A stretch of DNA of 20,711 nucleotides, from positions 1-20,711 of IMG/VR virus record IMGVR_UViG_3300046507_000597; one strand, given 5' to 3'. A model generated the notes under the pieces. That model worked only from the letters and a program-made list of their open reading frames with translations. It ran no database searches and had not been told where the DNA came from. Shown here piece after piece: positions 7,996 through 20,711 of this stretch; the stretch's first letter is position 1; each line of letters opens with the position of its first letter. The position numbers and the translations under genes are program-made. The DNA is from a virus.

Positions 7996-8050
7996 GCCTT
8001 GGAGATCTGGCCAGCAACCCGCATCCCCCCAACCTTCGAGAGAGGCCGTC

Positions 8051-8260
8051 ATGCGTCGTCACCCCATCCTCTGGCTGCTCGCCGGGACTTACCTGCTGGT
8101 CGTGGGCCTGTGGCCTGCGGCTGCGACCCCGGTCGAGCTGGCTGCGACGGGCGCGTTCACCGTGTTGGCGCAGCCGGCCGTGCTGCTGCTCGCCGCAGTC
8201 GTCGCCCTGATCGCGTCCGCCCGCCGCAAGCCCGCTCCTGCGCCTGCCGGGAGGCGCTGA
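8051..8260 (+). CDS. Small two-helix membrane protein, Spd-like by position
   Basis: The 69-residue product starts at ATG 8051 after a GAGAGAGG ribosome site. Residues ~6-24 (ILWLLAGTYLLVVGLW) and ~36-56 (FTVLAQPAVLLLAAVVALI) are membrane helices, followed by a short basic Pro/Ala tail that is probably cytoplasmic. Small membrane proteins encoded just before spdB and traB in Streptomyces plasmids are called Spd proteins and help intramycelial spread; this one fits by size and place, not by sequence match. It shares a base with the next gene (TGATG). Confidence 0.75.
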   Translation: MRRHPILWLLAGTYLLVVGLWPAAATPVELAATGAFTVLAQPAVLLLAAVVALIASARRKPAPAPAGRR

Positions 8261-8463
8261 TGCCGATCACGTTCCGCAAGAGCATCCGGATCTTCCCCGG
8301 CGTCCGGCTCAACATCAACCGGCGCTCCTGGTCAATCACCGTCGGGTCCCGGAACGGCCTGCAGCACACCCGCAGTTCGACCGGCCGCGACACCACCTCG
8401 CTCAACCTGCCCGGCCCGTTCGGCTACAGGTCCACCCGCACCCGACGTAACCGAGAGGGGTGA
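8260..8463 (+). CDS. DUF4236-like protein
   Basis: ATG 8260 overlaps the upstream stop by one base. The 67-residue product begins FRKSIRIFPGVRLNINRRSW and continues SITVGSRNG and TTSLNLPGPFGY, which is the arrangement of DUF4236 proteins: an RKS start, a GVRLN strand, a repeated VG strand and a final PG-x-GY/L motif. The domain is widespread in bacteria and usually has no assigned function. Its presence inside the transfer operon may point to a role at the membrane or cell wall, but the sequence does not show it. Confidence 0.7.
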   Translation: MPITFRKSIRIFPGVRLNINRRSWSITVGSRNGLQHTRSSTGRDTTSLNLPGPFGYRSTRTRRNREG

Positions 8464-8468
8464 CCGCC

Positions 8469-8555
8469 ATGCGCGAAAGCACTTGGGAGGTCCTCAGCTT
8501 CGTGATCCCCGGACTCATCGCCCTGGTGATCATCCTGCTGGTCGCCTGCCTCTGA
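8469..8555 (+). CDS. Single-pass membrane microprotein, 28 residues
   Basis: ATG 8469 follows GAGAGGGG closely, and the TGA is at 8553-8555. After a short polar start (RESTWEVLS) the rest (FVIPGLIALVIILLVACL) is one membrane helix that ends with the protein. It is too short for ordinary gene finders, but its ribosome site, placement six bases after the DUF4236 gene and strict hydrophobicity argue that it is real. It may be a small Spd-type accessory of the transfer complex. Confidence 0.6.
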   Translation: MRESTWEVLSFVIPGLIALVIILLVACL

Positions 8556-8558
8556 TCT

Positions 8559-8581
8559 GGCTTGTCCCCCGGCCACAAGCC
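8559..8581 (+). terminator. Perfect 7-bp stem-loop before spdB
   Basis: GGCTTGT (8559-8565) and ACAAGCC (8575-8581) pair around a nine-base C-rich loop. It begins three bases after the stop at 8555 and 42 bases before the spdB-like start. Confidence 0.45.
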
Positions 8582-8622
8582 GTCCCGTACCCCCACCGAG
8601 CCTCGAAAGGACACCGATCACC

Positions 8623-9921
8623 GTGACCGCCACATCCGTCGAGAAGGTCAACGGCACGCCGAAGACCTCGCCCGAGCCGCGGTTTGACCCGCGCGCGCTG
8701 GCCGAGGCGGAGGCGATCCGTACCCGAGCCGCCGCCGAAGCCGAGGCCCTGCGCACCGAAGCGGCGGGCAAGGCTGAGGCCGAGAAGATCCTCGCCGCGG
8801 AGAAGGCCGAGAAGGAGCGCATCGCCAACGAGCGCGCCGCCATGCGGCTGGAGAAGGAGCAGGCCGACCACCAGGCGTACCTCGCCAAGAAGAACGCCGA
8901 GACCGCCAAGTCCAACACCGAGAAGGAGAAGGCCAACAAGGCCGCCGCCGAGAAGGAGGCGGCCGAAGCGAAGAGGGACGCCGAGCAGCAGCGAACCGAG
9001 CTGTGGTGGAAGTGGGGTGCCCGCGGCATCTACGCCGTCGGCCTGGTCATCGCCGCGCCGGTGCAGTTCATGCACTTCTGGGACCGGGCCCGCCCGTTCC
9101 TGATCGCGGCGCCTGCGCTCCTCGAAGGCCTCGCCCTCGTGTTGGCGTTCGGCGCCGCCTGGGCGGTCGCGCACCGCCGGGATGTCGCCCCGTACCGGGT
9201 CGGCATCATGCTTGGCGCCGTGATCGCCGCCGGCATCAACATGTACGGCGGTCTGTCCGATCCGCGGATCGGTTTCAACGCCGGCCTGATCGGCGCTATC
9301 GCCTCCCTTGGCGGGCCGATCGTGCTGATGGCCTACGAGCACGGCATCGCCCAGAAGGCGGACGGGATCCCGTCGTGGCGGGAGCGGCGCAGCGCTGAGA
9401 AGGTCGCGGAGGCGGAGGCCGCCGTTGTCGAGCAGGCGCGCCTGGAGAAGGAAGCGGCCGAGACGGCCGCGGCGGCCGAGAAGAAGGCTGCGCAGGAGCG
9501 CGCCGAGGAGGAGCAGCGGCGCCGCGACGATGACCGCCGTGAGGGTCACCCGGAGATCTGGAAGACCGCCGAGGCGATGCGTTCCGCTCGCGGCTCGCAG
9601 TACGTCACGGAGCAGATCTGGGCCGAGGCCTGGTACCGCAAGACGGGCTCGAAGTTGGTCGGCGTGACCGCCGAAATCGAAGCCGAGTCGCGCGCCGCGC
9701 AGGCCCGCATGCAGAACGTCACCAGCACTCCGATAATCGGTGAGTTTTCGCTGGTCGATTCCCAACGACCCGCCCGCGAAAAGCGTGACCCGAACGCCCC
9801 CGACGGACGCCGCAACAACGGCGGCACCCCGCCCGTCCGTCGAGTCGGCGACGCCACCCCGAACCACCCCGTCGCACGCAAGCAGGCCGCCGTCGAGCGG
9901 ACCACCGAGAAGAAGGACTGA
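8623..9921 (+). CDS. spdB: SpdB-like DUF2637 membrane protein (plasmid spread/transfer)
   Basis: This 432-residue product starts at GTG 8623, with an AAAGGA site upstream. Residues ~20-125 are an Ala/Glu/Lys-rich coiled coil. Residues ~135-243 hold four membrane helices (GIYAVGLVIAAPVQFMHF; LLEGLALVLAFGAAWAVA; GIMLGAVIAAGINMYGGL; a last one ending PIVLMAYEHGI). Residues ~255-300 are a second coiled coil, followed by a helical domain and a basic tail. The membrane core matches DUF2637, which includes SpdB-type proteins of Streptomyces conjugative plasmids; these sit beside TraB and help DNA spread between mycelial compartments. It directly precedes traB (nine bases). The gene symbol is by family and context. 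Confidence 0.8.
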   Translation: MTATSVEKVNGTPKTSPEPRFDPRALAEAEAIRTRAAAEAEALRTEAAGKAEAEKILAAEKAEKERIANERAAMRLEKEQADHQAYLAKKNAETAKSNTEKEKANKAAAEKEAAEAKRDAEQQRTELWWKWGARGIYAVGLVIAAPVQFMHFWDRARPFLIAAPALLEGLALVLAFGAAWAVAHRRDVAPYRVGIMLGAVIAAGINMYGGLSDPRIGFNAGLIGAIASLGGPIVLMAYEHGIAQKADGIPSWRERRSAEKVAEAEAAVVEQARLEKEAAETAAAAEKKAAQERAEEEQRRRDDDRREGHPEIWKTAEAMRSARGSQYVTEQIWAEAWYRKTGSKLVGVTAEIEAESRAAQARMQNVTSTPIIGEFSLVDSQRPAREKRDPNAPDGRRNNGGTPPVRRVGDATPNHPVARKQAAVERTTEKKD

Positions 9922-9930
9922 GACCCCGCC

Positions 9931-12042
9931 ATGGCCACCCCGCTGACCGACGAGCGCACCCCGCTGAAGCTCGTCAAGGACGAGCCCGCACCGGCCGCGC
10001 CCCTCGCCGTCGAGCCCCGCCCGCGTGCCGCCTGGATTCTGTCCGGGGAGCAGCTGCGGCATCGCCTTGTCTACATCCGCGACAACGCCTCCGACGCGAT
10101 CCGCTTCCACGTCACCCACTCGCCGTACTACCTCGGCTGGTCGGTGCGCGGATACCGGCGGCTGTGCCTGCGGTGGTGGGAGGCGCGGTGTGACGACTAC
10201 CGGCAGCAGATCGCCACCGCCAAGCAGATGATCCGCGAAGCGAAGGCACAGCCGCGCGGCAGCGTGCGAGCGGCGGACGAGGCGAAAGCCCGCGCGCTGC
10301 GCAAGGTGCTGCGCGCCGACTATCGCGCCCACAAGCGGCAGCACTGGATCAAGACCGGTCACAGCGGCCTGCTTCCCGCAGCCATCGTCACGGGCGGGGC
10401 CATCGCAGCCGGCTTCTGGGTGCAGTTGCTGCTCGCCCTCGCTTTCATCGTCACCGGCGCCTACTTCGGCCGGCCCGAAGAGCCCGCCGTCGCCCCAACC
10501 CAGGCCCCGACCCGCACCAGCCACCTGGGCGAGGAGACCATGCGGCGCGTCCTCGTCGAGGCCGGCGTCGTCCCCGAGAAGCGCGCCACCGAGGTCCGCG
10601 GCGTTGGCCTGCCCCACACCGACGGGCCGGGCATCGCCTACGCCGTCGACCTGCCCTCCGGTATCCCCGCCTCCGCGGCGCTCGGCAAGGAGACGCAGAA
10701 GAAGATCGCGTCCGCGCTCACCGTGCACCTGGACTGGATCGACCTCGACGTCGACCGCAGCCCCGGCAGCAGCGAGTCCCGCCTCAAGGTGTGGGTGTCC
10801 AACGGTGATCCGTTCGCCGTCGTCCGCCGGTCCCCGCTGCTCGACCACAAGGGGGCGATCAACACCTTCCTCGACGGCATCCCCGCCTCGTTCGCCAAGC
10901 GCGGCAACGCGATCATCCTGCGGATCCGGGACACCAGCATCCTCGTCGCCGGTGCCACCCGCCGCGGCAAGGGCATGTTCCTCGCGAACATCCTCATCGG
11001 CGTGATGAAGGACCCGTGGGTCAACGTCCGGATCTTCGACGGCAAGGGGACCGCCGAACACAACCCCTACGCGCCGACCCTGTCCACGTTCGTGAAGCGC
11101 AATCCCGAACGGCTCGCCATCATCACCCGCGCGATCGTCGCCGAACTCGACCGTCGCTCCGACCTTCTCGACGAGCACGGCTACGAGAAGATCGACGACG
11201 ACAACTACGACGAGGTCATGAAGCTCCTCGGCGGCCGGGAAGTCTTCATCGTCGACGAACTCGCCACCTACACCCCCAAGGGCACCAGCCCCTACGACGA
11301 GGAGATCACCGAGAACCTGTCGCAGATCGCCGCCGTCGGCGCCGCGCTCGGCGTCCTCCTCATCAGCGTCACCCAGGTCCCCGAGGTCAGCGTCATCCGT
11401 GGCCGGCTCCGCCAGAACCACATCGGCCGCGCCGCAATGAACACCGAGTCCGGCACCGCCTCGAACACCATCCTCGGCGACGGCATGACCGGGCAGGGCT
11501 ACGACGCCTCCAAGATCCCGATCGACCAGCCGGGACGGTTCTGGCTGGCCACACCCGAGAGCGGCGTCATCGAGGGCCGTTCCTACCTGGTCACGCCCGA
11601 CGACAAGAGGCAGGTCGCAGCCGAGGGCTACGAGATCCGCAAGGCGGCCGGCCGCCTGCCTGGCCAGTGGCGCGACCCGATCGAGGAGCACCTGCAGCAG
11701 GTGACCGGCGTGTCCTCCGCGGCCGGCGGCGAGGGAGGCAAGGGGCGCATCGTCCACTTCGACTTCCTCACCTGGCTGGAGGAGTTGGCCCTGTCCACGG
11801 GGCGCGGCAACGTCACCAACCTGGAGGTGTTCACCAGCCTCGTCGACGTGTCGGCGGATTACGCGCGCCGGGACGGCGAATCGGACGAGGGCTGGACTGC
11901 CCGCGTCGGGAAGCTCGTCAGGGATCTGATCGCCGCGACGGGCGCCGAACTGCGGGTCAAGCGGGTGCCCGTGGATGACGGGAAGCGCTCGCAGGGCTAC
12001 CTGCTCGACGACGTCACGAAGGCCCGCAAAAGCCGCAAGTAA
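9931..12042 (+). CDS. traB: TraB-type FtsK/SpoIIIE DNA translocase
   Basis: The 703-residue protein starts at ATG 9931. Residues ~146-180 are a hydrophobic region fit for one or two membrane helices. The ATPase core has Walker A GATRRGKG at 341-348 and Walker B VFIVDE at 438-443, and then the FtsK-like RQNHIGRAAMNTESGTA segment. Residues ~608-703 look like a winged-helix domain, comparable with FtsK-gamma, which in TraB recognises octamer sites. TraB proteins are hexameric pumps that move double-stranded plasmid DNA between Streptomyces hyphae. Neighbours agree: SpdB before it and an octamer repeat cluster (12043-12193) right after it. A chromosomal-type FtsK is unlikely given length and context. 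Confidence 0.9.
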   Translation: MATPLTDERTPLKLVKDEPAPAAPLAVEPRPRAAWILSGEQLRHRLVYIRDNASDAIRFHVTHSPYYLGWSVRGYRRLCLRWWEARCDDYRQQIATAKQMIREAKAQPRGSVRAADEAKARALRKVLRADYRAHKRQHWIKTGHSGLLPAAIVTGGAIAAGFWVQLLLALAFIVTGAYFGRPEEPAVAPTQAPTRTSHLGEETMRRVLVEAGVVPEKRATEVRGVGLPHTDGPGIAYAVDLPSGIPASAALGKETQKKIASALTVHLDWIDLDVDRSPGSSESRLKVWVSNGDPFAVVRRSPLLDHKGAINTFLDGIPASFAKRGNAIILRIRDTSILVAGATRRGKGMFLANILIGVMKDPWVNVRIFDGKGTAEHNPYAPTLSTFVKRNPERLAIITRAIVAELDRRSDLLDEHGYEKIDDDNYDEVMKLLGGREVFIVDELATYTPKGTSPYDEEITENLSQIAAVGAALGVLLISVTQVPEVSVIRGRLRQNHIGRAAMNTESGTASNTILGDGMTGQGYDASKIPIDQPGRFWLATPESGVIEGRSYLVTPDDKRQVAAEGYEIRKAAGRLPGQWRDPIEEHLQQVTGVSSAAGGEGGKGRIVHFDFLTWLEELALSTGRGNVTNLEVFTSLVDVSADYARRDGESDEGWTARVGKLVRDLIAATGAELRVKRVPVDDGKRSQGYLLDDVTKARKSRK

Positions 12043-12193
12043 CCCCTGACAGGCCCCTGGCGACGAGTGGATAACCCCAGGTCGCTGCCCTGACACACCC
12101 CTGACAGCTGCTGCCGTGAACAGCAGCCCAAGCCACCCCCGGTCAGGGGTCTGTCAGGGGCCCGACCTGCAGTAATCCAGGCTCCGCCAGGGG
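12043..12193 (+). repeat. GTCAGGGG octamer cluster around a hairpin, clt or origin candidate
   Basis: The non-coding gap after traB holds four exact copies of the octamer GTCAGGGG. Two are inverted (CCCCTGAC at 12043-12050 and 12098-12105) and two direct (12142-12149 and 12153-12160). Single-mismatch copies are at 12054-12061, 12087-12094 and 12186-12193. A 13-mer CAGGGGTCTGTCA occurs twice (starting 12144 and 12189), with a near copy in inverse. Orientation flips across a hairpin GCTGCTG/CAGCAGC (12107-12127). Known clt loci of Streptomyces plasmids contain short TraB-recognition repeats near traB, which fits. A replication origin or operator array is the alternative. Confidence 0.65.
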
Positions 12194-12229
12194 TCTGTCA
12201 CCCCGAAAATCGAGAAAGGTCCCGGCCCG

Positions 12230-12838
12230 ATGCTCACCCTGAAGATCCAGCAGATGACGGTCGACGGGCACCCCAACCTGTGCCCCGAGTGCGGTTCCGA
12301 GGCCTACACCCTCGACGGCGCCGGGTTCATCGACGGACTGCCCGTCCGCGGCAACTGCTGGCAGTCCCACAGCTGGGGAGAGCCGTTGATCACCATCGGC
12401 ATCCTCAAGGAGATTCAGGCCGCGAGCACGGGACGGGAGCGCGCCGAGGACGACGACACGTTCGAGATCGAAGTCGGTGGCGCCGTCTTCGCCGGGATCC
12501 TCCACCCCGACGTCATCGTCGACGACCTGAAGCGGGCTGTCCGCGACGTGTACTGGAAGCGGCTGATCAAACCCGCCCTCCGCAAGCAGAAGCGCAAGGC
12601 CCTGCGCGCCGCGAAGAAGCCCGTCAGCAACGCTGCCGCAGCCGCCAAAGCCGCAGCCATCGGTGCCGCCTGGGGCCTCCAAGCCGGCGGCCACGAACCC
12701 GACCCTGACTACACACCCGAACCGATCAACGCCTGCCCCGCCTGCGAGGGCAAGGGCGGCTTCGACCTCAAATCCAACATCCACGGCAACCGCCGTATCC
12801 CCTGCACCGTGTGCACCGGCACCGGCGAAATCGACTAG
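12230..12838 (+). CDS. Zinc-binding protein with DnaJ-like CxxCxGxG motifs
   Basis: The 202-residue product starts at ATG 12230 with GAGAAAGG upstream. It has an N-terminal zinc site CPECG (C18, C21, with C43 and H47 as possible partners). A basic, alanine-rich helical stretch lies at ~120-150. A C-terminal pair CPACEGKGG (C169, C172) and CTVCTGTGE (C192, C195) is the CxxCxGxG form found in DnaJ zinc fingers. No J domain is present. It probably binds nucleic acid or protein; exact role unknown. It begins 36 bases after the octamer cluster and heads a second group of accessory genes. Confidence 0.78.
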   Translation: MLTLKIQQMTVDGHPNLCPECGSEAYTLDGAGFIDGLPVRGNCWQSHSWGEPLITIGILKEIQAASTGRERAEDDDTFEIEVGGAVFAGILHPDVIVDDLKRAVRDVYWKRLIKPALRKQKRKALRAAKKPVSNAAAAAKAAAIGAAWGLQAGGHEPDPDYTPEPINACPACEGKGGFDLKSNIHGNRRIPCTVCTGTGEID

Positions 12839-12846
12839 GAGAAACC

Positions 12847-13014
12847 ATGATCCGAACCATCCGCCGCGCGTTCAGTACCCGCGTCGAATGCGACTGCGGC
12901 TTCGCGCAGACCGCCAGCAGCGACCGCATGGCCGACGTCATCGTCAGGCAGCACAGCTGCCAGCCCGCCGCCCCGCGCCGCACCCGCCGCAGTTCCACCT
13001 CGAACCGCGCCTGA
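12847..13014 (+). CDS. Small Cys/His basic protein
   Basis: ATG 12847 follows TAGGAGAAA, which overlaps the preceding stop. The 55-residue product contains CDCG near residue 16 and a later HSC, a possible single zinc site, then an Arg/Ser/Pro-rich tail (PRRTRRSSTSNR) that could bind DNA. An earlier in-frame ATG (12811) lies inside the previous gene and is rejected. No family is recognised. Confidence 0.65.
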   Translation: MIRTIRRAFSTRVECDCGFAQTASSDRMADVIVRQHSCQPAAPRRTRRSSTSNRA

Positions 13015-13034
13015 CCACAAGGAGACCCGACCCC

Positions 13035-13523
13035 ATGACCGTCCTGCCCGAGCCGAAGCCCACCGCCACCGCGGCCGGGCAGGCCCACCTCGACGACCAG
13101 GCCCGCCAGCTGCTCGCCGCCGTCGAGGAGGCGATGCGGACGCCGACCTCGTACCGCGACGACGCACCCGTCCCCATGGTGGGCACCGCCCCGCCCGTCG
13201 CGCAGCCCGGACGGCCGCCGATGTCCCAGAAGGCCACCGACGTCAGCGCGTTGATGCTGTCCGGCGGTCTCGCCTCCCTGCCCATCGGAGCTGCGGCCAG
13301 CCTCGTTCTCTGGGCATCCGGGCACGCCGACCCCATGGTCATCGCCGTGATCTGCGCCGCCCCCACCACGCTCATCCTCGCCCTCAGCCGCCTCGTCAAG
13401 CGCGCCAAGGAAACCGCCCCGGATGAGATCCACAACCACTACAACGGGCCCGTCTACCAGGACCAGCGCAACGTCCACAGCAGCACCCGCGGCGTGTGGG
13501 CCAAAACCAACAACCAGCAGTAG
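13035..13523 (+). CDS. Two-helix membrane protein with polar C-terminus
   Basis: ATG 13035 has AAGGAGA ahead of it; the frame extends upstream through other genes and is not used. The 162-residue product has a Pro-rich soluble N-terminus (1-70), membrane helices at ~72-94 and ~101-121, and a C-terminal polar tail with HNHYNGPVYQDQRNVHSS. The whole design (Pro-rich arm, two helices, His/Asn/Gln tail) resembles hypothetical membrane proteins of Streptomyces integrative elements. It may be an Spd-type accessory; this rests on context. Confidence 0.72.
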   Translation: MTVLPEPKPTATAAGQAHLDDQARQLLAAVEEAMRTPTSYRDDAPVPMVGTAPPVAQPGRPPMSQKATDVSALMLSGGLASLPIGAAASLVLWASGHADPMVIAVICAAPTTLILALSRLVKRAKETAPDEIHNHYNGPVYQDQRNVHSSTRGVWAKTNNQQ

Positions 13524-13535
13524 GAGGAGACCGTC

Positions 13536-13757
13536 ATGCCCAAGCCCACCGCCGAACAGCTCCGTGTCGACGCCGAGGAGAACGAGCTCCTCGCCGCGTT
13601 CCGTCGCGCCCAAGCCGACCTGTACGCCAACGCCGCCCGCGAATCTGCCGCCGGAATCACCCACGAAACCGACGAGTACCTGCGCCTCAACCAGGCCGTC
13701 ATCGACGCCGGAAAGCGGCTGCCCAAGGGGCTCAAGCGCCTCGCCAAGGACATCTGA
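13536..13757 (+). CDS. Small hypothetical protein, paralogue of the 7508-7684 product
   Basis: ATG 13536 is preceded by an excellent GGAGGAGA ribosome site starting at the previous stop. The 73-residue product is helical (VDAEENELLAAFRRAQADLY) and has AAGITHETDEYLRLNQAVID, then a basic end LPKGLKRLAKDI. The middle block aligns without gaps with AAGVTEETDTYVALNTAVVQ of the 7508-7684 product. A strong hairpin (13774-13798) follows, ending the unit that began after traB. Confidence 0.72.
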   Translation: MPKPTAEQLRVDAEENELLAAFRRAQADLYANAARESAAGITHETDEYLRLNQAVIDAGKRLPKGLKRLAKDI

Positions 13758-13773
13758 CCTGCCGCACGACCAC

Positions 13774-13798
13774 GCCCCCGGCCGATCCGGTCGGGGGC
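13774..13798 (+). terminator. Strong hairpin terminator
   Basis: GCCCCCGGCCG and CGGTCGGGGGC pair over 11 positions (one G-T wobble) with a three-base loop, 17 bases after the stop at 13757. It probably ends the transcript of the spd-tra and accessory genes. Confidence 0.65.
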
Positions 13799-13856
13799 CT
13801 CGACGTCATCCCCTGGAGCAGCATTCCGCTCCGCATCGACAACTGAAAGAGACCCG

Positions 13857-14168
13857 ATGCCCCGCCGACCCATGTCCGCGAAGCGCGCCGCCGCCATCAT
13901 CGGCGGCGCCCAGCTCGTCAAAGCCCCCGACTGGCCAGACACCCGCCACTGGCACGTCGTATCCGGCGGGAACGCCCTCGTCGTCATCGCCCCGTCCTAC
14001 GGCGGGGTCTCCCGCAGCGGACGGAACGGCTGGACCTGGTGGCTCGCCGACCCCGGCCCCGGCATCGGACCCGCCGCCGGCAGCCGACCCGAAGCGAACC
14101 GCGAGCAGGCCGCCGCAGCCGGGCTTGACGCCTGGCAACGCCGGGCCACCACCGCGGACCGCCGATGA
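13857..14168 (+). CDS. Small hypothetical protein
   Basis: The 103-residue product starts at ATG 13857 with a GAAAGAGA ribosome site. It has an N-terminal helix (SAKRAAAIIGGAQLVKA), a Trp-rich centre (PDWPDTRHWHVVSGG, NGWTWWLADPG) and an alanine-rich C-terminal helix. The centre could be a small beta sheet. No cysteine or catalytic motif is present. A short hairpin at 14183-14203 follows. No family recognised. Confidence 0.7.
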   Translation: MPRRPMSAKRAAAIIGGAQLVKAPDWPDTRHWHVVSGGNALVVIAPSYGGVSRSGRNGWTWWLADPGPGIGPAAGSRPEANREQAAAAGLDAWQRRATTADRR

Positions 14169-14182
14169 ACCGCACCGCGCAG

Positions 14183-14203
14183 GCCCCGCCTCCAGTCCGG
14201 GGC
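14183..14203 (+). terminator. Short GC hairpin in the 14169-14301 gap
   Basis: GCCCCG and CGGGGC pair around a nine-base loop, 15 bases past the stop at 14168. It is only six base pairs, so termination may be partial. The rest of the 133-base gap shows no promoter I would defend. Confidence 0.3.
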
Positions 14204-14301
14204 GAGCCCTGCTATGCCATTGGCCTGCCGTGTCAACCCTCTCGTGCACAATTGGCTCAGTAGTGGCCACGCTTCCCGTACCACCGCCGAGGAGCCGCAG
14301 C

Positions 14302-14955
14302 ATGCACGACCACGCCCCCGACGACGACGGCTACATCCGGCCGGTCTGCGACCCCTGCGGACGCGAACTCCGCCACGACGAACTCGGCCGCCGCGCTTGC
14401 CGCCTCTGCCAGGAGCGTGTCGACCTCGCGCTCCGCCAACTGCCCGGACCCGACGGCCTATACGCCCAACTTGCCACCCGGCTCACCCCCGGCAGCGGTG
14501 GCGGTGTCGGCCCCGTCTCCGGATCCCGCACCGCACCGCTCCCGCTCCGGCTGGAGCCCCTGTCGCTCATGGCCCGCGGCGGTGTCGTCACCGTGCTGCA
14601 GGCCTGGCAGGTCGACTGGCACGAGCTCCTCGGCTGGCCGCATCCGCGCTGGCAGGGCGACCTCCAGCAGCAACTCGACAACGTGGTCAGGGCCTTGCGC
14701 GTCAACCTCGAATGGGCTGCCACCGAACACCCCGCCTTCGGTGACTTCGCCCGGGAGACCGTCAGTCTGGTCCGCCAGTGCGAACGCCAGATAACTGGCG
14801 AGCGGGCCGAGCGGCGCGTATCCGTGGCCTGCCCGTGCGGCACCGTGCTGCGGGTCACCGTGTCCACGCCGGGCGCACGGTGCCGTGGATGCGGCACCCA
14901 GTACGCGCGAAGCGACGTCCTAGACCTGCCCATCGCCGAACGGGCCGCCGCGTAA
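14302..14955 (+). CDS. Protein with N- and C-terminal zinc fingers
   Basis: ATG 14302 is chosen for its GAGGAG site and because the open frame upstream runs antisense-like through other genes. The 217-residue product has a first zinc finger C16-x2-C19 with C33-x2-C36, a helical middle with QAWQVDWHELLGWPHPRW (about 90-110) and LDNVVRALRVNLEWAATEHP, and a second zinc ribbon C177-x-C179 with C194-x2-C197 (CRGCGTQYAR). Two-ended zinc proteins of this type occur in Streptomyces phages and plasmids without known function. DNA binding is plausible. It is the last gene before the late terminator at 15050. Confidence 0.8.
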   Translation: MHDHAPDDDGYIRPVCDPCGRELRHDELGRRACRLCQERVDLALRQLPGPDGLYAQLATRLTPGSGGGVGPVSGSRTAPLPLRLEPLSLMARGGVVTVLQAWQVDWHELLGWPHPRWQGDLQQQLDNVVRALRVNLEWAATEHPAFGDFARETVSLVRQCERQITGERAERRVSVACPCGTVLRVTVSTPGARCRGCGTQYARSDVLDLPIAERAAA

Positions 14956-15049
14956 TCGCCCAATCACCCAACGAATCAACGCTTGCGCAGGTCACTGCCC
15001 GTATGTCACAGTGCCCACATCCGGATACTCGTGTGTCCGCAGCTACTAC

Positions 15050-15074
15050 AGCCCCCAGCTTCCGGCCGGGGGCT
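15050..15074 (+). terminator. Intrinsic terminator with T-rich tail before the phage genes
   Basis: AGCCCCC and GGGGGCT pair around an 11-base loop and are followed by TTCT. It lies 95 bases after the stop at 14955 and directly before the phage-type genes, separating the accessory block from the late module. Confidence 0.65.
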
Positions 15075-15095
15075 TTCTGCATGTCGGGGGTAAGC

Positions 15096-15341
15096 GTGAA
15101 CGTCACCGACCTGTACCCCGAAGACCTCGTCTTCGAGCACGAAGCCACCGCAGCAACCGGCATACCAGGCCCCGTGATCCGACAATGGGCCAGGCGCGGC
15201 AAAGTCCGCCGCTTCCAAGGCAGGCCAAGCGAATACTCCGGCCAAGGCCACGAGTACAAGACCCTGTACGCCCTGCCTGACGTGCAGGCCCGCGCTGCCA
15301 CCTACCGGCCCATGCCGCAGCGCGCACCTCGGGCGGCTTGA
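15096..15341 (+). CDS. Small HTH protein (MerR/excisionase-like)
   Basis: GTG 15096 follows a GGGGG ribosome site; ATG 15081 overlaps that site and is less likely. The 81-residue protein carries EHEATAATGIPGPVIRQWARRG (about 14-35), typical of a MerR/excisionase winged helix, followed by RFQGRPSEY and LYALPDVQARA, the place where such folds set their wing and next helix. Proteins of this type precede structural genes in several Streptomyces phages; it may regulate late genes. Excisionase is possible but no integrase is in the window. Confidence 0.7.
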   Translation: MNVTDLYPEDLVFEHEATAATGIPGPVIRQWARRGKVRRFQGRPSEYSGQGHEYKTLYALPDVQARAATYRPMPQRAPRAA

Positions 15342-15360
15342 AACCTGACAGGAGACCGCC

Positions 15361-15807
15361 GTGGCCAACATCGTCTTCAACGTTGCGCTCGGCCGCGTGG
15401 CCTACTACGCCTCCCTGCCTGCCGCCAACGACGGACTGATCGCGGTCCCCATCGAGACGACGGGCATCGTGGGCGACGCGACGATGCGCGACTATGACGA
15501 CCTCGCAACGCTCCTCGCCGGCGCGAGCAACGAGCAGACCACCATGGGCCGTAAGACCTTGTCCGGGGCGACGGTGACCGTCGATGACACCAACGACCGC
15601 GTGGCCCTCGACTCCGCAGACATCGTCTGGACCGGCGCCACCGGCAACCCGATCAGCGCGATCGTCATCTGCTACGACCCCGACACCGCCACCGGGACCG
15701 ACGCGGACCTGATCCCGCTGACGAAGCATGACTTCGCGATCACGCCTGACGGCAGCGATATAGCCGCGACCGTCGCGGACTTCTACCGCGCCACCAGCGC
15801 CGCCTGA
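15361..15807 (+). CDS. Phage structural-type hypothetical protein
   Basis: GTG 15361 has CAGGAGA ahead of it. The 148-residue product starts NIVFNVALGRVAYYASLPAA and continues with acidic beta-rich stretches (TVTVDDTNDRVALDSADIVW, AIVICYDPDT) and ends TKHDFAITPDGSDI. I know this type from actinophage genomes, where it lies among tail or head genes; its role (decoration or fibre-associated) is unproven. No signal peptide or membrane segment. It forms a unit with the two downstream structural genes. Confidence 0.75.
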   Translation: MANIVFNVALGRVAYYASLPAANDGLIAVPIETTGIVGDATMRDYDDLATLLAGASNEQTTMGRKTLSGATVTVDDTNDRVALDSADIVWTGATGNPISAIVICYDPDTATGTDADLIPLTKHDFAITPDGSDIAATVADFYRATSAA

Positions 15808-15832
15808 CCGGCCGCACCGGGAGGGATGAACC

Positions 15833-16681
15833 ATGGCGCTCATCTCGACCTTGGTCGACGACTTCAACGACGGCGTCGTAGATCCGGCGAAGTGGCCCAA
15901 CAGCTTCGGGACGTACAGCGAGGTCGGCGGCCGGGCGCGGATCGTCTGCGACACCGGCTTCAACGCGTACAGCTCGGCCCTCAACTACACGCTCGCCGGA
16001 TCCTCGATCTACCTGCGCGGCTACGCCCCTGCGGCAGGCGGTGCCACCACGGAGGCGTGGGCGCAGATCCTGATCAAAAGCAGCACCGGCGGCACGGACC
16101 TCGGTTTCGAGCTGAGGGCTCTCACGGGCGAGTTGGTCATGTTCTCGCGCACCGGCTTCTTCGATGCCGGGGCCGTCCTCATCCCGTACTCGGCGACCGC
16201 GCATGCGTGGCTGCGGGTCCGTGAAACCGGCGGCACCACCTTCTGGGACACGTCACCCGACGCGGCAACGTGGACGAACAGGCGCAGCCTGACCAGCCCG
16301 GCATGGGTCGCCGACACCAACATCGAGTTCCAGCTCATCGCCCACCGCGACAGCGGCACGAACGACTATGCCGAGTTCGACAACGTCAACGTCACCGGAA
16401 CCCGCGCCGCCCTCGGTACGGCCGGCGAGACGGACACCGCGCGGACGCTCGGCGCCCGGAAGACGAAGCTCCTGCCCCTCGCGACCGGCATCGAGACGGC
16501 CGTCGCGCTGGGGCGACGCAAGGTCCGCACCCTCCCGCCAGCAGTCGAGACCAACACGGCCGTCGCCATCGCCGGACGCGTGGGCGCAGACGACCTCGAC
16601 GTCACCGTCGGCCAGCCGTACAGCCCGTGGACCGCAGGCGAACCGCAAGGCGCGACCTGGCCCGTAGGCGCACCGCACTGA
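15833..16681 (+). CDS. Jelly-roll (lectin/glucanase-like) phage fibre or tail protein
   Basis: The 282-residue product starts at ATG 15833 with GGGAGG upstream. Residues ~5-195 have the layout of a concanavalin-like jelly roll: VDDFNDGVVDPAKW at the start, then VGGRARIVCD, WAQILIK, ELRALTGELVMFSR, HAWLRVRETGGTTFW and a last FDNVNV. Residues ~200-250 carry imperfect short repeats (ETDTARTLGARKTKLLP, ETAVALGRRKVRTLPP, ETNTAVAIAGR) of a kind common in Streptomyces phage tail proteins. The fold often binds carbohydrate, so host surface recognition is a fair guess. It is one of three structural-type genes in a row. Confidence 0.78.
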   Translation: MALISTLVDDFNDGVVDPAKWPNSFGTYSEVGGRARIVCDTGFNAYSSALNYTLAGSSIYLRGYAPAAGGATTEAWAQILIKSSTGGTDLGFELRALTGELVMFSRTGFFDAGAVLIPYSATAHAWLRVRETGGTTFWDTSPDAATWTNRRSLTSPAWVADTNIEFQLIAHRDSGTNDYAEFDNVNVTGTRAALGTAGETDTARTLGARKTKLLPLATGIETAVALGRRKVRTLPPAVETNTAVAIAGRVGADDLDVTVGQPYSPWTAGEPQGATWPVGAPH

Positions 16682-16693
16682 GAGGTGGTGGAC

Positions 16694-16993
16694 ATGGAAC
16701 TCCCCGCCACCACCACCGAATACGTCCGCATCCCGGTGACCGCGCCCGTCGGAGTCGACATCACCGGGACTCCGCCGAAGCTGGCGTTCCTGCCCGTCTC
16801 GAACCGGGACAACCCGGTGACCGGCGATTGGAAGACGGGATCGTGGGCGAGCGGGCCAGAGGCGCGGCTCCTCGTCGGCCCTGATGGCGGGGCGGTCACG
16901 CTCGCGCGAGGCGACTACCGGGTGTACGTCAGCTTCGATCCGCCAGGCAGCGAGAACATCGTGCGCCTGTCCGGCTACCTCGGGATCATCTAG
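16694..16993 (+). CDS. Small phage structural-type protein
   Basis: ATG 16694 is chosen because GAGGTGG lies six bases upstream; GTG 16685 overlaps that site. The 99-residue product is beta-rich: EYVRIPVTAPVGVDIT, PPKLAFLP, then ARGDYRVYVSFDPPGSENIV and a final LSGYLGII. Short proteins with this pattern follow fibre-like genes in Streptomyces phages. Its TAG lies within a CTAG that also ends the leftward gene at 16990-17205. Confidence 0.72.
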   Translation: MELPATTTEYVRIPVTAPVGVDITGTPPKLAFLPVSNRDNPVTGDWKTGSWASGPEARLLVGPDGGAVTLARGDYRVYVSFDPPGSENIVRLSGYLGII

Positions 16994-17205
16994 CCCCGCT
17001 TACGCCACGGCCGGCCTTCGCCGCCCGGCCTCAGCGTCACTTCTGGATCCGGTCCAGTCCGACGCTGACGTGCTGTCGCAGCCACTGCACCCAGCATCAT
17101 CAGCCCGCCGATCACGAGCAGGGCTACGTTGAACTCCTTGACCACGCCGATCATTAGCACGGCCAGGCCAACCACGAACACTCCGAGCGCTGCATCGGTA
17201 CGCAT
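16990..17205 (-). CDS. Small leftward two-helix membrane protein (moron-like)
   Basis: ATG 17203-17205 has a GGGGGTGGTGAG site upstream on the minus strand. The 71-residue product has membrane helices at ~7-22 (LGVFVVGLAVLMIGV) and ~27-44 (NVALLVIGGLMMLGAVAAT), followed by a basic soluble tail. It is the only leftward gene in the late region, convergent with the structural gene and divergent from HNH, with stop codons shared in CTAG (16990-16993). Independent transcription of this type is typical of phage morons; roles such as superinfection exclusion are possible but unproven. Confidence 0.65.
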   Translation of the reverse strand: MRTDAALGVFVVGLAVLMIGVVKEFNVALLVIGGLMMLGAVAATARQRRTGPDPEVTLRPGGEGRPWRKRG

Positions 17206-17250
17206 GCTCACCACCCCCAAGCCGCACACGGTACGACCACGGAGGCGGCC

Positions 17251-17634
17251 ATGCCCAGACGCGGGGGATACCGGGTGTGCTCCCGGCCTGGCTGCCCGGA
17301 GTACACCACGGGCGGACGATGCGAGGGCTGTCGGCGCGAGGCAGAGCAGAGGCGAGGCAGCGCAAGGCAGCGAGGCTACGGACGAGGGCACGAGCAGCGG
17401 TTCCGTCCTGGCGTGCTGGCCCGCAACCCGACGTGCGTGTGCACCGACGAGAGCCACGACCACGGCTCACCGTGCGGCCAGCGGTCCGTGCACGCCGACC
17501 ACTGGCCACTCAGCCGGCGCGAGCTCGTCGAGCAGGGCCTCGACCCCGACGATCCGAAGCATGGCCGAGGCCTGTGCACGTCATGCCACAGCAGGTCAAC
17601 GGCACGAGAGCAGCCAGGAGGATGGAACCGATGA
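17251..17634 (+). CDS. HNH endonuclease (phage packaging associated)
   Basis: ATG 17251 follows GGAGG. The 127-residue product has an N-terminal zinc knuckle (C10, C15, C24, C27), then the HNH core: H81-x-D83-H84 with WPLSRRELVEQGLDP, and GLC109-x2-C112-H113 followed by SRSTARE; C75 completes the likely zinc set. This is the form found just before the terminase genes of many cos-type phages of HK97-like kind, where HNH nucleases act with terminase in cutting concatemers. It overlaps the next gene by four bases. Confidence 0.9.
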   Translation: MPRRGGYRVCSRPGCPEYTTGGRCEGCRREAEQRRGSARQRGYGRGHEQRFRPGVLARNPTCVCTDESHDHGSPCGQRSVHADHWPLSRRELVEQGLDPDDPKHGRGLCTSCHSRSTAREQPGGWNR

Positions 17635-17840
17635 CCACCAAGGGCAAGGCGACGACCGACAGCGAGACGGCAGACGAGCCAGCGAAGGCCAAGGAGAGGC
17701 CGCTGTGCGGTGCGCCGCACTTCCTGCCGACCCTGGCTCACCTGACGTGCGCCCAGCCGGCTGCCGACCCGGACTTGCCGCCCGGCACCCCGGAGCACGA
17801 GCACCGGCACCAGGACGGCGACGCGATCTACACCTGGTAG
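17631..17840 (+). CDS. Small phage hypothetical protein between HNH and terminase
   Basis: ATG 17631 overlaps the HNH stop (ATGA) and has GGAGGATG ahead of it. The 69-residue product has a charged N-terminus (TDSETADEPAKAKERP), a Cys/His segment CGAPHFLPTLAHLTC and a His-rich end (EHEHRHQDGDAIYTW). The Cys and His residues could bind a metal ion. Short proteins with this CGAPH...LTC and HEH...DGDA arrangement recur next to HNH genes in Streptomyces phages. Function unknown. Confidence 0.72.
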   Translation: MTTKGKATTDSETADEPAKAKERPLCGAPHFLPTLAHLTCAQPAADPDLPPGTPEHEHRHQDGDAIYTW

Positions 17841-18069
17841 GCAGTGGCCGGCTCTGGCCGGCGATGCTCCCAGGCTCCCGGTGATCATCACGGTCAGTCA
17901 CGAAGGCCATGATCACCCTGGGGAGGGACCCCCAGATCAAGATCCACGGGGGACCGCCGGGGAGGTGGCTCCCAGGTTTGCCAGGTTCAGAGCCTAGGTG
18001 ATCATGCTCCGCTGTCACGCAAGGTGACGGCGTTTTCGCCGCGCAACGCGGCTAGTTGGAGTGATCGAT
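17841..18069 (+). other. Non-coding repeat-bearing region, cos/packaging-site candidate
   Basis: This 229-base gap lies between the HNH unit and the small terminase, where cos sites of such phages are usually found. GTGATCAT occurs directly at 17881-17888 and 17998-18005 and inverted at 17909-17916. GCTCCCAGG occurs at 17866-17874 and 17968-17976, each time upstream of a GGTGATCAT. Hairpins GTCAC/GTGAC (18014-18028) and GGCG/CGCC (18029-18040) follow. A G-rich CCGCCGGGGAGG segment lies near 17955-17966. The repeats may be small-terminase binding sites; the cut position cannot be told from sequence. Confidence 0.4.
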
Positions 18070-18540
18070 ATGCCGAAGGGTGGAGCACGCACCAGGTCCG
18101 GGCCGGCGCCCGATCCGACCGCGCTGAGGCGCGAGCGAGACGCCGGCGAGTGGACGATTCTGCCTGCTGAAGGCCGTGAAGGCGCAACGCCTGACTGGCC
18201 GTTCGAGGAGCAGAGCGTTCGTGAGGCGGTGCTGTGGGAGCGCCTGTGGGAGAAGCCGCAGGGGCTGATGTGGGAACGGTACGGCCAGGAGATCGAGGTT
18301 GCGCTGTACGCCCGTCGGCTCGCTGAGGCGGAGAAGCCGGACTCGGCGGTCGTCCTGTCGACGCTTGTGCGGCAGATGGCGGACTCGTTGGGGCTGACGA
18401 CGCCTGGAATGCGCGGCAACCGGTGGCGCATCGACCGGATCAGCGAGGAAGACGAGACGCTGACGGGGCTGAGCGCGCCTGCCATTGAGGCGACCTCGGC
18501 GCGAGCCAGGCTGAGGGCGGTGCCTGGTGGTAGCGGCTGA
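18070..18540 (+). CDS. terS: Terminase small subunit
   Basis: ATG 18070 is chosen because TTGGAG lies at good spacing; GTG 18061 would touch it. The 156-residue product begins PKGGARTRSGPAPDPTALRR, a typical start of actinophage small terminases (P.GP...D), and has a DWPFEEQSVREAVLWERLW helix, a long helical middle and an NRWRI segment before the tail. Small terminases bind the packaging site and load the large subunit. The gene overlaps the large subunit gene by 14 bases, and the repeat-bearing gap just upstream fits as its binding site. Confidence 0.85.
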   Translation: MPKGGARTRSGPAPDPTALRRERDAGEWTILPAEGREGATPDWPFEEQSVREAVLWERLWEKPQGLMWERYGQEIEVALYARRLAEAEKPDSAVVLSTLVRQMADSLGLTTPGMRGNRWRIDRISEEDETLTGLSAPAIEATSARARLRAVPGGSG

Positions 18541-20155
18541 CGACGGGACCTGGCCGCTGGATTTCCCCACCCTGTACGTCGTCCCTGACTGGATTGCTCG
18601 GCATTGCCTGCTGCAGTCGGTTGGCGGCCTGGATATCACGCCGCGCCCGTTCGAGATGTACGACTGGCAGCTGCGGATCACGGCGAATCTGTACCGTGTC
18701 AAGCCGACTGCCGAGCTTGGCCAGCTGTCGACCGCGTTCCACTATCGGCGTGCTCAGGCGGTGGCTCCTCAGAAGTCCGGCAAGGGTCCGTGGGCCGCGT
18801 CTGTGGTTGCCGCGGAGGCCGTTGGCCCGGTGCTGTTCAACGGTTGGGCGCAGGGCGGGGAGCGCTATCGGTGCTCGGATCACGGGTGCGGCTGTGGCTG
18901 GGTGTACTGGTACGAGCCGGGCGAGCCAATGGGCCGGCCGTGGAATCAGCCGCTGATCCAGATCACGGCAACGTCCGAGGATCAGACGGACAACACGTAC
19001 CGGCCTCTGCAGGCGATGATTCGGAATGGCCCGCTGTCCGAGGTGATGAAAGTCGGTGAGCAGTTCATCCGGCTGCCGAACGACGGCCGGATCGACGTCG
19101 TCACATCGTCCGCCCAGTCGAGGCTGGGTAACCCGATCACGTTTGCGTCGCAGGACGAGAGCGGAATCTGGACCGAGCAGAACGGCATGACCAAGGTCGC
19201 CACGACGCAACGCCGCGGCCTGGCGGGCATGTCAGGGCGCTCGCTGGAGCAGACGAATGCCTGGGATCCGACGGAGAACACGGTCGCGCAGAAGACCGCG
19301 GAGACGAAGGCCCCGGACGTCTACCGGTTCCACCGGCTGCCGCCCAAGAGCCTGTCGTACACGAACAAGGCGGAACGGCGGCGAATCCACGCGGCCGTGT
19401 ACCTGGGCAGTACGCACATCGACCTCGATGCCATCGAGGGCGAGGCCTTCGAGCTGATGGAGAAGGAGCCTGCGGAAGCGGAGCGCTTCTACGGCAACCG
19501 CATCACGGCGGGCATGGGCACCTGGCTGCAGCAGGACCGCTGGGACGCCCGCATCGCCTTGGAGGACGTGCCGGACGGCACGGCTCTCGCGCTGGGCTTC
19601 GACGGCTCCGACGTGGACGACTGGACCGGCATCCGTGCCGAGACTTTGGACGGCTACCAGTTCACTCCGACCTACGGGCCCGACAACAGGCCGTGCATCT
19701 GGGATCCAGAGGACTGGGAGGGCCAGGTGCCGCGGCTTGAGGTCGATGCCGCGGTGGATGAACTGATGGGCCGCTTCAACGTGGTGCGTATGTACGGCGA
19801 CCCGCCGTACTGGACCAGCGAGATGGCGGCCTGGCAGGCCCGATTCGGCGAGAAGCGCGTCACTGAGTGGCAGACGTACCGCGTTGCGCAGATGCATGCG
19901 GCCTGCGAGCAGCTACTGACGGACGTCACGAAGAAGGACACGACCTTCCGGCATGACGGCTGTGAGACGACGTCTATCCACGTCCGGAACGCCCGCAAGG
20001 CGGCCCGGCCGGCGAAGCGTTACGTGCTGCGTAAGGCGACGCACGTTCAAAAGATCGACCTTGCCGTGGTGTCAGTTCTAGCCCATGAGGCCGCGTGCGA
20101 TGCGATCGCCGCTGGTGAAGCCCGGACCAAGAAGCGCAGGGCGCGCGGATTCTGA
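18527..20155 (+). CDS. terL: Terminase large subunit
   Basis: The 542-residue product starts at GTG 18527 inside the small subunit gene. The ATPase has Walker A APQKSGKG (80-87) and Walker B TFASQDES with D210-E211. The C-terminal nuclease (RNase H-like) shows LGFDGSD with D359 and D362, and IDLAVVSVLAHEAA with D511. An inserted Cys-rich stretch near 115-125 (CSDHGCGCGW) may bind zinc. The enzyme cuts concatemeric DNA and drives it into the prohead through the portal. Full length for the family, with no broken motif. The portal gene follows after 15 bases. Confidence 0.95.
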   Translation: MVAADDGTWPLDFPTLYVVPDWIARHCLLQSVGGLDITPRPFEMYDWQLRITANLYRVKPTAELGQLSTAFHYRRAQAVAPQKSGKGPWAASVVAAEAVGPVLFNGWAQGGERYRCSDHGCGCGWVYWYEPGEPMGRPWNQPLIQITATSEDQTDNTYRPLQAMIRNGPLSEVMKVGEQFIRLPNDGRIDVVTSSAQSRLGNPITFASQDESGIWTEQNGMTKVATTQRRGLAGMSGRSLEQTNAWDPTENTVAQKTAETKAPDVYRFHRLPPKSLSYTNKAERRRIHAAVYLGSTHIDLDAIEGEAFELMEKEPAEAERFYGNRITAGMGTWLQQDRWDARIALEDVPDGTALALGFDGSDVDDWTGIRAETLDGYQFTPTYGPDNRPCIWDPEDWEGQVPRLEVDAAVDELMGRFNVVRMYGDPPYWTSEMAAWQARFGEKRVTEWQTYRVAQMHAACEQLLTDVTKKDTTFRHDGCETTSIHVRNARKAARPAKRYVLRKATHVQKIDLAVVSVLAHEAACDAIAAGEARTKKRRARGF

Positions 20156-20170: not shown

Positions 20171-20711
20171 ATGCTTCAGCCTGCAGTCCAGTCCCCGGAG
20201 TGGTGGCGTGACCGCTTGTACGAGGCGCTGTGCAAGCGGTCGGAGGAGACGAAAGTCTTTGACGACTACTACGAGTGCGAGCACCCGCTGCCGCACCTGC
20301 ACGAGAGGGCGCGGGAGCCGTTCCGGCGGCTGCTGAAGATGTCCCGGGCGAATTACATGGAGCTCGTCGTCGATGCGCTCGTGGGTCGCCTGGAGGTGGC
20401 TGGCTTCCAGTCGGACGCCGACGCCGGTGACGCGGATCAGGCGGCGTGGGGGCTGTGGCAGGACAACAACCTGGACGGCGGCTCGTCGCTGGCGTTCCTG
20501 GAGGCGGCGATCCGCGGAAACGCCTACATGCTGGTGTCGCCGGACAAGCGACTCGGCTTCCGGATCACTCCGGAGCATCCGACGCAGGTCATCACGGAGG
20601 AGAAGCCGGGGGAGCCCGGCGAGATGGCCGCTGCGCTGAAGCTGTGGATCGATGACTGGACGGCCAAGCTGTGCTGCACGGTCTATCTCCCCGACCGGAT
20701 CTACAAGTTCG
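20171..20711 (+). CDS. Phage portal protein, SPP1 gp6-like, 3' end cut
   Basis: ATG 20171 has GAGAGGGGG upstream, and the frame stays open to the window end (180 residues). The start PEWWRDRLYEAL, followed by FDDYYECEHPLPHL, FRRLLKMSRANYMELVVDAL and then LAFLEAAIRGNAYMLV and a TPEHPTQVI segment, is typical of SPP1 gp6-type portals. These form the dodecameric ring at one head vertex through which terminase pumps DNA. Order (small terminase, large terminase, portal) is canonical. Confidence 0.92.
   Translation, partial: MLQPAVQSPEWWRDRLYEALCKRSEETKVFDDYYECEHPLPHLHERAREPFRRLLKMSRANYMELVVDALVGRLEVAGFQSDADAGDADQAAWGLWQDNNLDGGSSLAFLEAAIRGNAYMLVSPDKRLGFRITPEHPTQVITEEKPGEPGEMAAALKLWIDDWTAKLCCTVYLPDRIYKF

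Follow-up and report, generated by a model that had tools for sequence, protein, structure and literature searches.

The closest described counterpart of the locus considered here is the Streptomyces plasmid-phage pZL12 (GQ919031), which is reportedly extrachromosomal and is said both to form phage particles and to conjugate. Its genes for a membrane protein (73c, annotated as similar to SCO6921), an FtsK-like protein (71c; phrog_31069), the protein 70c, a terminase large subunit (TerL; 67c) and a weak portal match (66c) stand in the same order and orientation as their counterparts in the stretch of DNA analysed here (the window), which is the entire IMG/VR record IMGVR_UViG_3300046507_000597 (positions 1-20,711; 20,711 bases); the record is a fragment and its ends are therefore uninformative. 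pZL12 differs from the window in an extra gene (72c) between 73c and 71c, and it has ParA/ParB; several relatives of the window are integrated. As a close relative pZL12 was rejected, since at E 1e-3 the window has protein matches only to 70c (42-47% identity to the protein at 13035-13523) and to Nudix proteins, in a comparison that left out pZL12 bases 90,001-90,435. According to the passage of a citing paper that deals with it, conjugation of pZL12 requires the major tra gene and two of its neighbours (pZL12 is cited in PMC3583192 and PMC4487206), and pSLE1 of S. leeuwenhoekii, likened here by description, is presented in part of the latter paper as a circular pZL12 relative of 86.4 kb that carries genes for phage particles as well as two putative integrases (PMC4487206). 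A second point of comparison is the TraB-clt systems of the plasmids pJV1 and pWTY27, in which a cis-acting locus of transfer (clt) made of an array of 7-9-bp repeats directly follows the tra gene, as in the window; unlike the window, pJV1 is a plasmid with no phage gene annotated. Our analysis suggests that the window is probably part of the genome of a single temperate phage of actinobacteria, which carries a conjugation cassette (a Spd-like protein, TraB, a putative clt, the gene at 12230 and a 70c homologue, in that order) directly before its packaging region, the host being most likely Streptomyces, as judged from the relatives.

The cassette opens with a gene for a Spd-like membrane protein of 432 aa (8623-9921), recognized by profile iteration and located directly 5' of traB in the aligned relatives, and continues with a gene for a 703-aa TraB-type FtsK/SpoIIIE DNA translocase (9931-12042); all genes from Spd to portal lie on the plus strand according to the open reading frame list and the profile searches. 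The translocase matches PF01580 (29.1 bits against a cut-off of 24) and phrog_1358 (E 2.3e-33), and consists of an N-terminal helical part with a stretch that is hydrophobic by eye, a motor at approximately 201-596 and a C-terminal domain at approximately 606-703, a candidate winged-helix domain for reading 8-bp repeats, for which the model of the whole protein (mean predicted local distance difference test score, pLDDT, 78) gives the element order H-E-H-H-E-E-H. In this model the motor (201-596) adopts the FtsK motor fold, superposing on FtsK (6t8b) with Z 30.6 and a root mean square deviation (rmsd) of 3.8 over 360 residues, and on TcpA (6o1z) with Z 29.9 and an rmsd of 3.9 over 346 residues. 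Residues G341, G346, K347, D442 and E443 are invariant in 13/13 aligned TraBs, and both Walker A and Walker B of the FtsK/SpoIIIE motor are intact in the window protein. A full-length TraB-type translocase on the strand of Spd and the packaging genes had been claimed in the original prediction for this stretch, and PF01580, phrog_1358 and the motor fold all bear it out.

The same prediction had called the protein upstream an SpdB-like DUF2637 protein, of which the Spd part holds through profile iteration and homologues, while the window protein has no DUF2637 match of its own (PF10935 is unmatched even at E 0.1, and Pfam, PHROGs and NCBIfam give no match at E 0.01). An iterative profile seeded with the window Spd reaches a DUF2637-annotated plasmid protein (L011, 303 bits) and PF10935 is matched, under its cut-off, by the homologues of G009 and G011; the label of the window protein derives from these homologues. 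Among plasmids two relatives of Spd were found, both weak. Its layout comprises a long charged helix, hydrophobic helices (by eye) and C-terminal helices, and the model (mean pLDDT 74, predicted template modelling score, pTM, 0.30), used for helix positions only in view of this pTM, places helices at 23-152, 158-183, 189-212 and 218-246. The Spd-like protein is a probable intramycelial-spread or TraB-partner protein.

The TraB family profile relates the translocase to proven plasmid transfer proteins beyond the motor, matching pJV1 TraB with 124 bits (E 8e-40, profile 173-736) and pIJ101 Tra with 91 bits (profile 111-581), as compared with 79 bits for a chromosomal FtsK (profile 270-554) and 39 bits for pZL12.71c. 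pJV1 TraB is nonetheless only a distant relative, giving no significant BLASTP match. A tree of TraB with FtsK places the window in one group with G002, G001, G330, G003, G004 and G251 (100/100), and the plasmid TraBs L009-L011 among prophage TraBs; in this tree long branches meet, so that the positions of pIJ101, pZL12 and FtsK are unsure, and the sequence called FtsK_G038 is a longest frame, unmatched by profile, that may be wrong. Relatives among phages are few. At the DNA level, a search of 50,697 phage records with 8.5-15.0 kb of the window returned only pZL12 (two record copies, covering 7% of the query) and a Variovorax phage, the latter through one short match within the stretch of spd that encodes the charged coiled coil. 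At the protein level two Listeria records match TraB at E 1e-5, and of the 71 records of isolated phages that match it, weakly, at E up to 1, none covers 80% of the query. One TraB-bearing record, L009 (CP075612.1; 23 kb, labelled a linear plasmid), starts within a traB-like gene, holds a recombinase, a prim-pol and ParA, and may represent part of an element that is larger or circular.

An FtsK motor in a phage need not serve mating, and the TraB-like protein could be a phage 'moron' of the kind found in Cluster J mycobacteriophages, acting within the cell to move or resolve DNA of the phage or the host. Like TraB, the Cluster J proteins have an FtsK motor encoded by a phage, followed by a C-terminal DNA-binding domain that varies; the gamma domain is the most variable part there too, according to the portion of the literature that treats them (PMC3706429), and the motor of the family matches chromosomal FtsK at 79 bits. 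Among the matches listed, mycobacteriophage proteins such as that of Baka, which we take to be a Cluster J phage, are approximately 30% identical over part of the TraB motor. Against this, the Cluster J proteins are described in the same portion as lacking an N-terminal membrane domain (PMC3706429), whereas the window TraB has N-terminal helices, in part hydrophobic by eye, together with a Spd partner; the family profile favours pJV1 TraB over FtsK in both score and span; and the repeats described below are restricted to one gap instead of being spread in the manner of the FtsK orienting polar sequences (KOPS). We therefore regard a purely intracellular role as unlikely.

Directly behind traB lies a gap of 187 bp (12043-12229) with a candidate clt array of CCCTGAC(A) repeats. 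CCCTGAC stands in direct orientation at 12044, 12088 and 12099 and inverted at 12142 and 12153, with 11-bp steps at 12088-12099 and 12142-12153; five copies of this 7-mer fall in the gap as against five in the remaining 20.5 kb (5.06 expected by chance). The best 8-mer of the gap, present in four copies, was matched in 0/300 shuffles (resampled by a Markov model of base steps, so that dinucleotide counts are not exactly kept) and in 1/401 other windows. As a positive control, the same detector applied to pJV1, whose traB ends at 11101, finds seven copies from 11106 onward, across the origin of the circular record, and the windows behind traB are that plasmid's best for repeats. The published pJV1 clt has nine repeats of CCGCACA[C/G][C/G] and the proven clt of pWTY27 measures 175 bp, of which 16 bp belong to traA and 159 bp adjoin them, in the part of the source that concerns them (PMC3583192). 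No array was found behind pIJ101 tra, as expected, because the clt of pIJ101 lies near korB. By sequence, the window thus has a putative short-repeat cis locus next to traB, which likely represents the docking site (clt) of this TraB, and a specific transfer system is therefore likely. The gap also holds CAGGTC (12078-12083) facing GACCTG (12164-12169). Both words occur in the gap of 9/28 elements, in that order in eight, as compared with an ordered pair in 71/11,743 control windows, and it may be asked whether they are a second signal common to the arrays.

Relatives carry other words in the same place, often at 11-bp spacing: ACCCTGCC in G001, G331 and G201 (6, 6 and 4 copies), CAGGGGTC in G002 (4 copies), AGGTCTGC in G251 (5 copies), ATCACGGG in G004 (4 copies) and CGGACACC in plasmid L011 (9 copies). 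Across 28 elements, 11 arrays were reached by at most 1/300 shuffles, eight more by at most 7/300 and nine by more. The word appears to change with the C-terminal domain of TraB. Compared with G001, the window TraB is 93% identical in the motor and 37% in the C-terminus; compared with G002 it is 96% and 95% identical, respectively, despite terminases of different type. The DNA gives the same picture in 150-bp steps, with 90-92% identity to G001 at 10.68-11.58 kb, 51-55% at 11.73-12.18 kb (C-terminus and array) and 67-87% beyond, whereas identity to G002 remains at 91-95% up to the end of traB and is 81-85% in the gap. C-terminus and gap, across which the identity to G001 drops from 81-92% to 51-55%, therefore differ as one block between otherwise similar elements. 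Among the 378 pairs that the 28 elements form, repeat words were strongly shared in 15/19 pairs with a C-terminal identity of at least 53% and in 9/359 others (15/19 refers to unrounded identities; rounded identities give 16/20), and none of 10,000 label permutations reached 15 shared pairs (maximum 7). For high-C-terminus pairs whose motors are less than 60% identical the word was shared in three out of four (10/10,000 permutations), and the word of G001 is common to G201 and G331 although their motors are just 47-49% identical. These comparisons argue for a repeat word that follows the C-terminal domain of TraB rather than the motor, one form of the test being weak. Since C-terminus and gap vary as a block and the word tracks the C-terminus, a working TraB-clt pair is argued for.

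Several results weigh against a temperate phage with a functional TraB-clt pair. The 53% threshold was picked after inspecting the data (other thresholds agree in direction) and the pairs are non-independent. A rank-based Mantel test of C-terminus against repeat words gave weak correlations (Spearman 0.15 and 0.13); the partial form for the C-terminus given the motor was not significant (0.03, with 564/2000 permutations as high, and 0.05 with masking, 365/2000), while that for the motor given the C-terminus was significant both times (0 and 4 of 2000). Variation is also not confined to the C-terminus, because the N-terminal part of TraB varies too between the window and G001; before 10.68 kb traB has 51-86% DNA identity with G001 and 68-90% with G002. 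A C-terminal profile built for the family does not match the C-terminus of pJV1 TraB, and no repeat array was found behind pZL12 71c, the FtsK gene. A convincing array is missing in 9/28 elements, seven of them with two copies only and two (G218, G059) borderline, and for elements with three copies approximately 4-10% of the contig's other windows also reach three. Finally, no integrase, rep or lysis gene was found in the window, which is a fragment.

Such results leave room for a decayed cassette, that is, for plasmid tra genes that were acquired by a phage and retained without function. Several relatives without a clear array would fit this view, as would the 9/17 TerL relatives with at least 9 kb of upstream sequence in which no TraB-family gene lies there (a TraB-family gene is present in the other eight). 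Decay is, however, difficult to reconcile with open frames, with Walker residues that are invariant in 13/13 aligned TraBs, and with C-terminus and array words that go together across 28 elements, and we consider it quite improbable.

Evidence that the conjugation and packaging modules belong to one phage-like element comes from conserved gene order and from a bounded prophage. G001 (L005/L012) has the order Spd-TraB-12230-70c-1467-15361-TerS-TerL-portal, as in the window, with identities of 68% for Spd, 76% for TraB, 64% for the protein of 12230, 43% for 70c, 74% for 1467, 64% for 15361, 82% for the terminase small subunit (TerS), 92% for TerL and 90% for the portal, and the 9.1-kb record L027 spans 1467 to portal at 90-100%. 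In Streptomyces pacificus (G045; a 697-kb contig), 44-bp direct repeats, one copy of which lies inside tRNA-Val, bound a 59.8-kb element (549,524-609,332). A 449-aa integrase stands beside attL (phrog_1, E 1.4e-29; no Pfam match at 0.001), and the interior holds, besides this integrase, DnaB, a GntR/UTRA regulator, Spd (unmatched in Pfam and PHROGs, and named through the local profile), TraB, TerS, TerL, an SPP1-type portal, a phage tail protein and an amidase with LysM; its TraB is 41% and its TerL 66% identical to those of the window. No convincing attachment (att) repeats were found for G038 and G044, and in 40-kb stretches of nine other TraB neighbourhoods (G335 left out), too short to hold both ends of a 60-kb prophage, only G059 showed them. 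G009 (62,602 bases) carries CCAGGGGTCCGAAAACCGGAC and inverted GGGGTCCGG/CCGGACCCC repeats at both record ends (L126:1-60 and the end of L129), which may mean that a circular genome was opened within a repeat.

The S. pacificus element also invites comparison with actinomycete integrative and conjugative elements (AICEs), defined by Int, Tra and Rep in the part of the source concerned (Ghinet 2011, PMC3218068), with which it has an integrase, a tRNA att site and an FtsK/SpoIIIE-type Tra in common. It differs from them in its 59.8 kb with virion genes; the TraB-bearing elements of one Streptomyces population span 11.9-36.2 kb, as given in the relevant section of PMC9513070. For the window itself an AICE does not fit, as terminase and portal are present.

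The cassette recurs upstream of other packaging modules. An IMG/VR search with TraB returned four loci (G001-G004), of which G001 is of the same TerL lineage, while G002, G003 and G004 have TraBs of 65-88% identity upstream of other terminases. G002 (78 kb) has a phrog_38 TerL, a PF05133 portal, a tyrosine integrase and GntR; G003 (85 kb) a phrog_776 portal, a TerL piece (phrog_979, E 1e-7), a phrog_1 integrase and DnaB; and G004 (24 kb) a TerL of phrog_9/2699 and a phrog_2662 portal. The pZL12 TerL 67c is of the same type as that of G002 (phrog_38, PF03237). The TerLs of the window and of G002-G004 do not match each other at E 1e-4, and the cassette therefore precedes packaging modules of four different types, although those of the window and G004 both match phrog_9. 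In G002 a TROVE-domain (Ro60-like) protein (PF05731, E 1e-15; L016:11908-13536, i.e., 71908-73536) is encoded in a phage-like element, 0.1 kb past a tRNA-Ser(GCT) gene (71732-71802). PF01580 was found at E 0.01 in 16/36 records searched whole (seven over the cut-off), or 13/33 once the three records retrieved solely by TraB are set aside. Of 392 Streptomyces genomes, 15 have a TraB match at E 1e-60 or better, and terminase, portal or tape-measure homologues lie downstream on the same strand in 11/12 of the TraB neighbourhoods examined, some at just 22-28% identity; the 12 comprise ten newly fetched (nine positive) together with G038 and G045 (both positive), G037, G147 and G418 being left out. 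Five of the ten fetched relatives are on contigs of at least 4.3 Mb and are therefore chromosomal, the others being on contigs of 181-588 kb. The search for TraB beside terminase in other genomes, suggested along with the original prediction, thus returned both G001-G004 and these Streptomyces neighbourhoods.

An AICE or integrated conjugative plasmid lying next to an unrelated prophage, joined by assembly or insertion, is a very improbable and largely refuted explanation, since the order is kept in G001, the cassette recurs with other terminases and att repeats enclose both modules in S. pacificus, even though an AICE-like element with a related TraB and no phage genes seen does exist (G059, a 25.7-kb repeat-flanked island at tRNA-Thr) and two plasmids carry relatives in 41-kb stretches for which the annotation lists no terminase. 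The absence of a boundary between the two modules, as first claimed, stood up: an attachment site or junction at 13.8-15.1 kb, which would have separated them, was sought and none was found, the order being repeated in G001. Likewise, the stated distance of about 6 kb between Spd/TraB and the HNH, TerS, TerL and portal genes, on the plus strand and with small genes between, agrees with our map, in which the TraB stop lies 5.2 kb from HNH and 6.0 kb from TerS. G+C is 66-72% throughout the window, with 72% at 14.0-15.0 kb and 67% at 15.0-16.0 kb.

Between the array and the packaging genes, the conserved cassette gene at 12230-12838 encodes a 202-aa protein with a C-terminal CxxCxGxG-like zinc motif (weak PF00684, E 0.002, below the cut-off) that has 64-70% identity in G001-G004, and the gene at 13035-13523 a small membrane protein (by eye) homologous to pZL12.70c (phrog_19266, E 6.5e-72; pZL12.70c falls in this family at E 1.8e-47). 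There follow a small phage gene of unassigned function (13857-14168; phrog_36470, E 2.6e-26), a gene for a protein of unassigned function with zinc-ribbon-like cysteine pairs by eye (14302-14955; phrog_1467, 74% in G001), a MerR-like DNA-binding protein of uncertain start (15081-15341; phrog_2474, E 1.2e-4) and three phage genes without assigned function (15361-15807, 15833-16681 and 16685-16993; phrog_26662, phrog_14065) whose order is kept in L027, L050 and G001, all on the plus strand. The HNH endonuclease (17251-17634) was recognized through PHROGs only (phrog_589, E 5.9e-14; phrog_144), with no Pfam match. TerS (18061-18540) is assigned from phrog_226 (labelled minor tail protein in PHROGs), a weak PF25673 match below the cut-off and its position before TerL. 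TerL (18527-20155; phrog_19179, phrog_21277, phrog_9) is matched by 1970 phage records, every one at less than 60% identity, and the portal (20171-20711; phrog_104, PF05133) is truncated by the record end; TerS, TerL and portal stand in the order of a tailed-phage packaging module. The gene before TerL in pZL12 (68c; L003:16183-16713) matches phrog_645 (labelled RNase E, E 1.5e-27) and no small-terminase family.

A frame with a C-terminal DUF4236 domain (7999-8463; PF14020, E 8e-16) immediately precedes the Spd gene. Genes on the minus strand lie to the left, among them an adjoining pair of Nudix-hydrolase genes (3898-4943; PF00293), the second with a weak N-terminal helix-turn-helix match; pZL12 also has a Nudix-like match near its tra region (65.4-65.8 kb). 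An open frame of 1188 aa on the minus strand (8530-12096), antisense to spd and traB, is most likely no gene and only the shadow that coding DNA of high G+C casts on its other strand. A search for tRNA genes in the window found none.

That the locus is a phage or phage-plasmid with a transfer system was supported as regards one phage-like element and, given the clt-like array, a likely transfer system, whereas a phage-plasmid found no support for this window: no rep or par family was found among the 33 frames of the window, a fragment, that were given to Pfam, and several relatives are chromosomal. The combination is unusual and recurrent, with a precedent in pZL12 and its tra genes. A conjugative phage element is therefore not a new idea, having been anticipated by pZL12 (2010) and its relative pSLE1; what is new is that the family is broader, that some of its members are integrated and that its specificity is exchangeable. 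A search of open-licence papers, which did not cover subscription papers or preprints, found no literature on chromosomal prophages with TraB-clt cassettes and their exchange, and the main text of an actinobacterial prophage survey does not contain FtsK, conjug-, translocase or TraB (PMC10023795).

With respect to binding of the array by TraB, the transfer of DNA, its timing and the use of both routes, we infer the following course. In the lysogen the cassette would be held off, probably by a GntR-type repressor such as the relatives have. Once the element has excised and replicates, TraB hexamers would dock on the repeat array via their C-terminal domain. They would then drive the genome, as a double-stranded circle, across hyphal tips or cross-walls, and Spd would aid spread inside the mycelium, as suggested by the TraB of pSVH1, pJV1 and pWTY27. 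During lytic growth the same genome would be packaged into virions by TerS, TerL and the portal. The parts are ordinary, their combination is unusual and recurrent, and the putative docking site is testable; mating is the step that the comparison with plasmid TraB suggests.

More tentatively, these elements could represent a widespread Streptomyces class of integrating, tailed conjugative prophages in which a TraB-clt pump provides a second, non-lytic route within the mycelium and between colonies, and in which docking domain and clt are exchanged together among phages, plasmids and AICE-like elements as a specificity cassette that would determine between which genomes a pump can be shared, comparable to an incompatibility type. 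The TraB C-termini, tabulated with their repeat words, would then be a set of natural experiments on cargo recognition by a DNA pump. As prophages carry TraB too, surveys that mark conjugative elements by TraB (with Int and Rep) should check for terminase. If this reading is true, the same element would travel in virions and also, with neither lysis nor a receptor, by mating through hyphae, and the distinction between phage, plasmid and AICE would be blurred.

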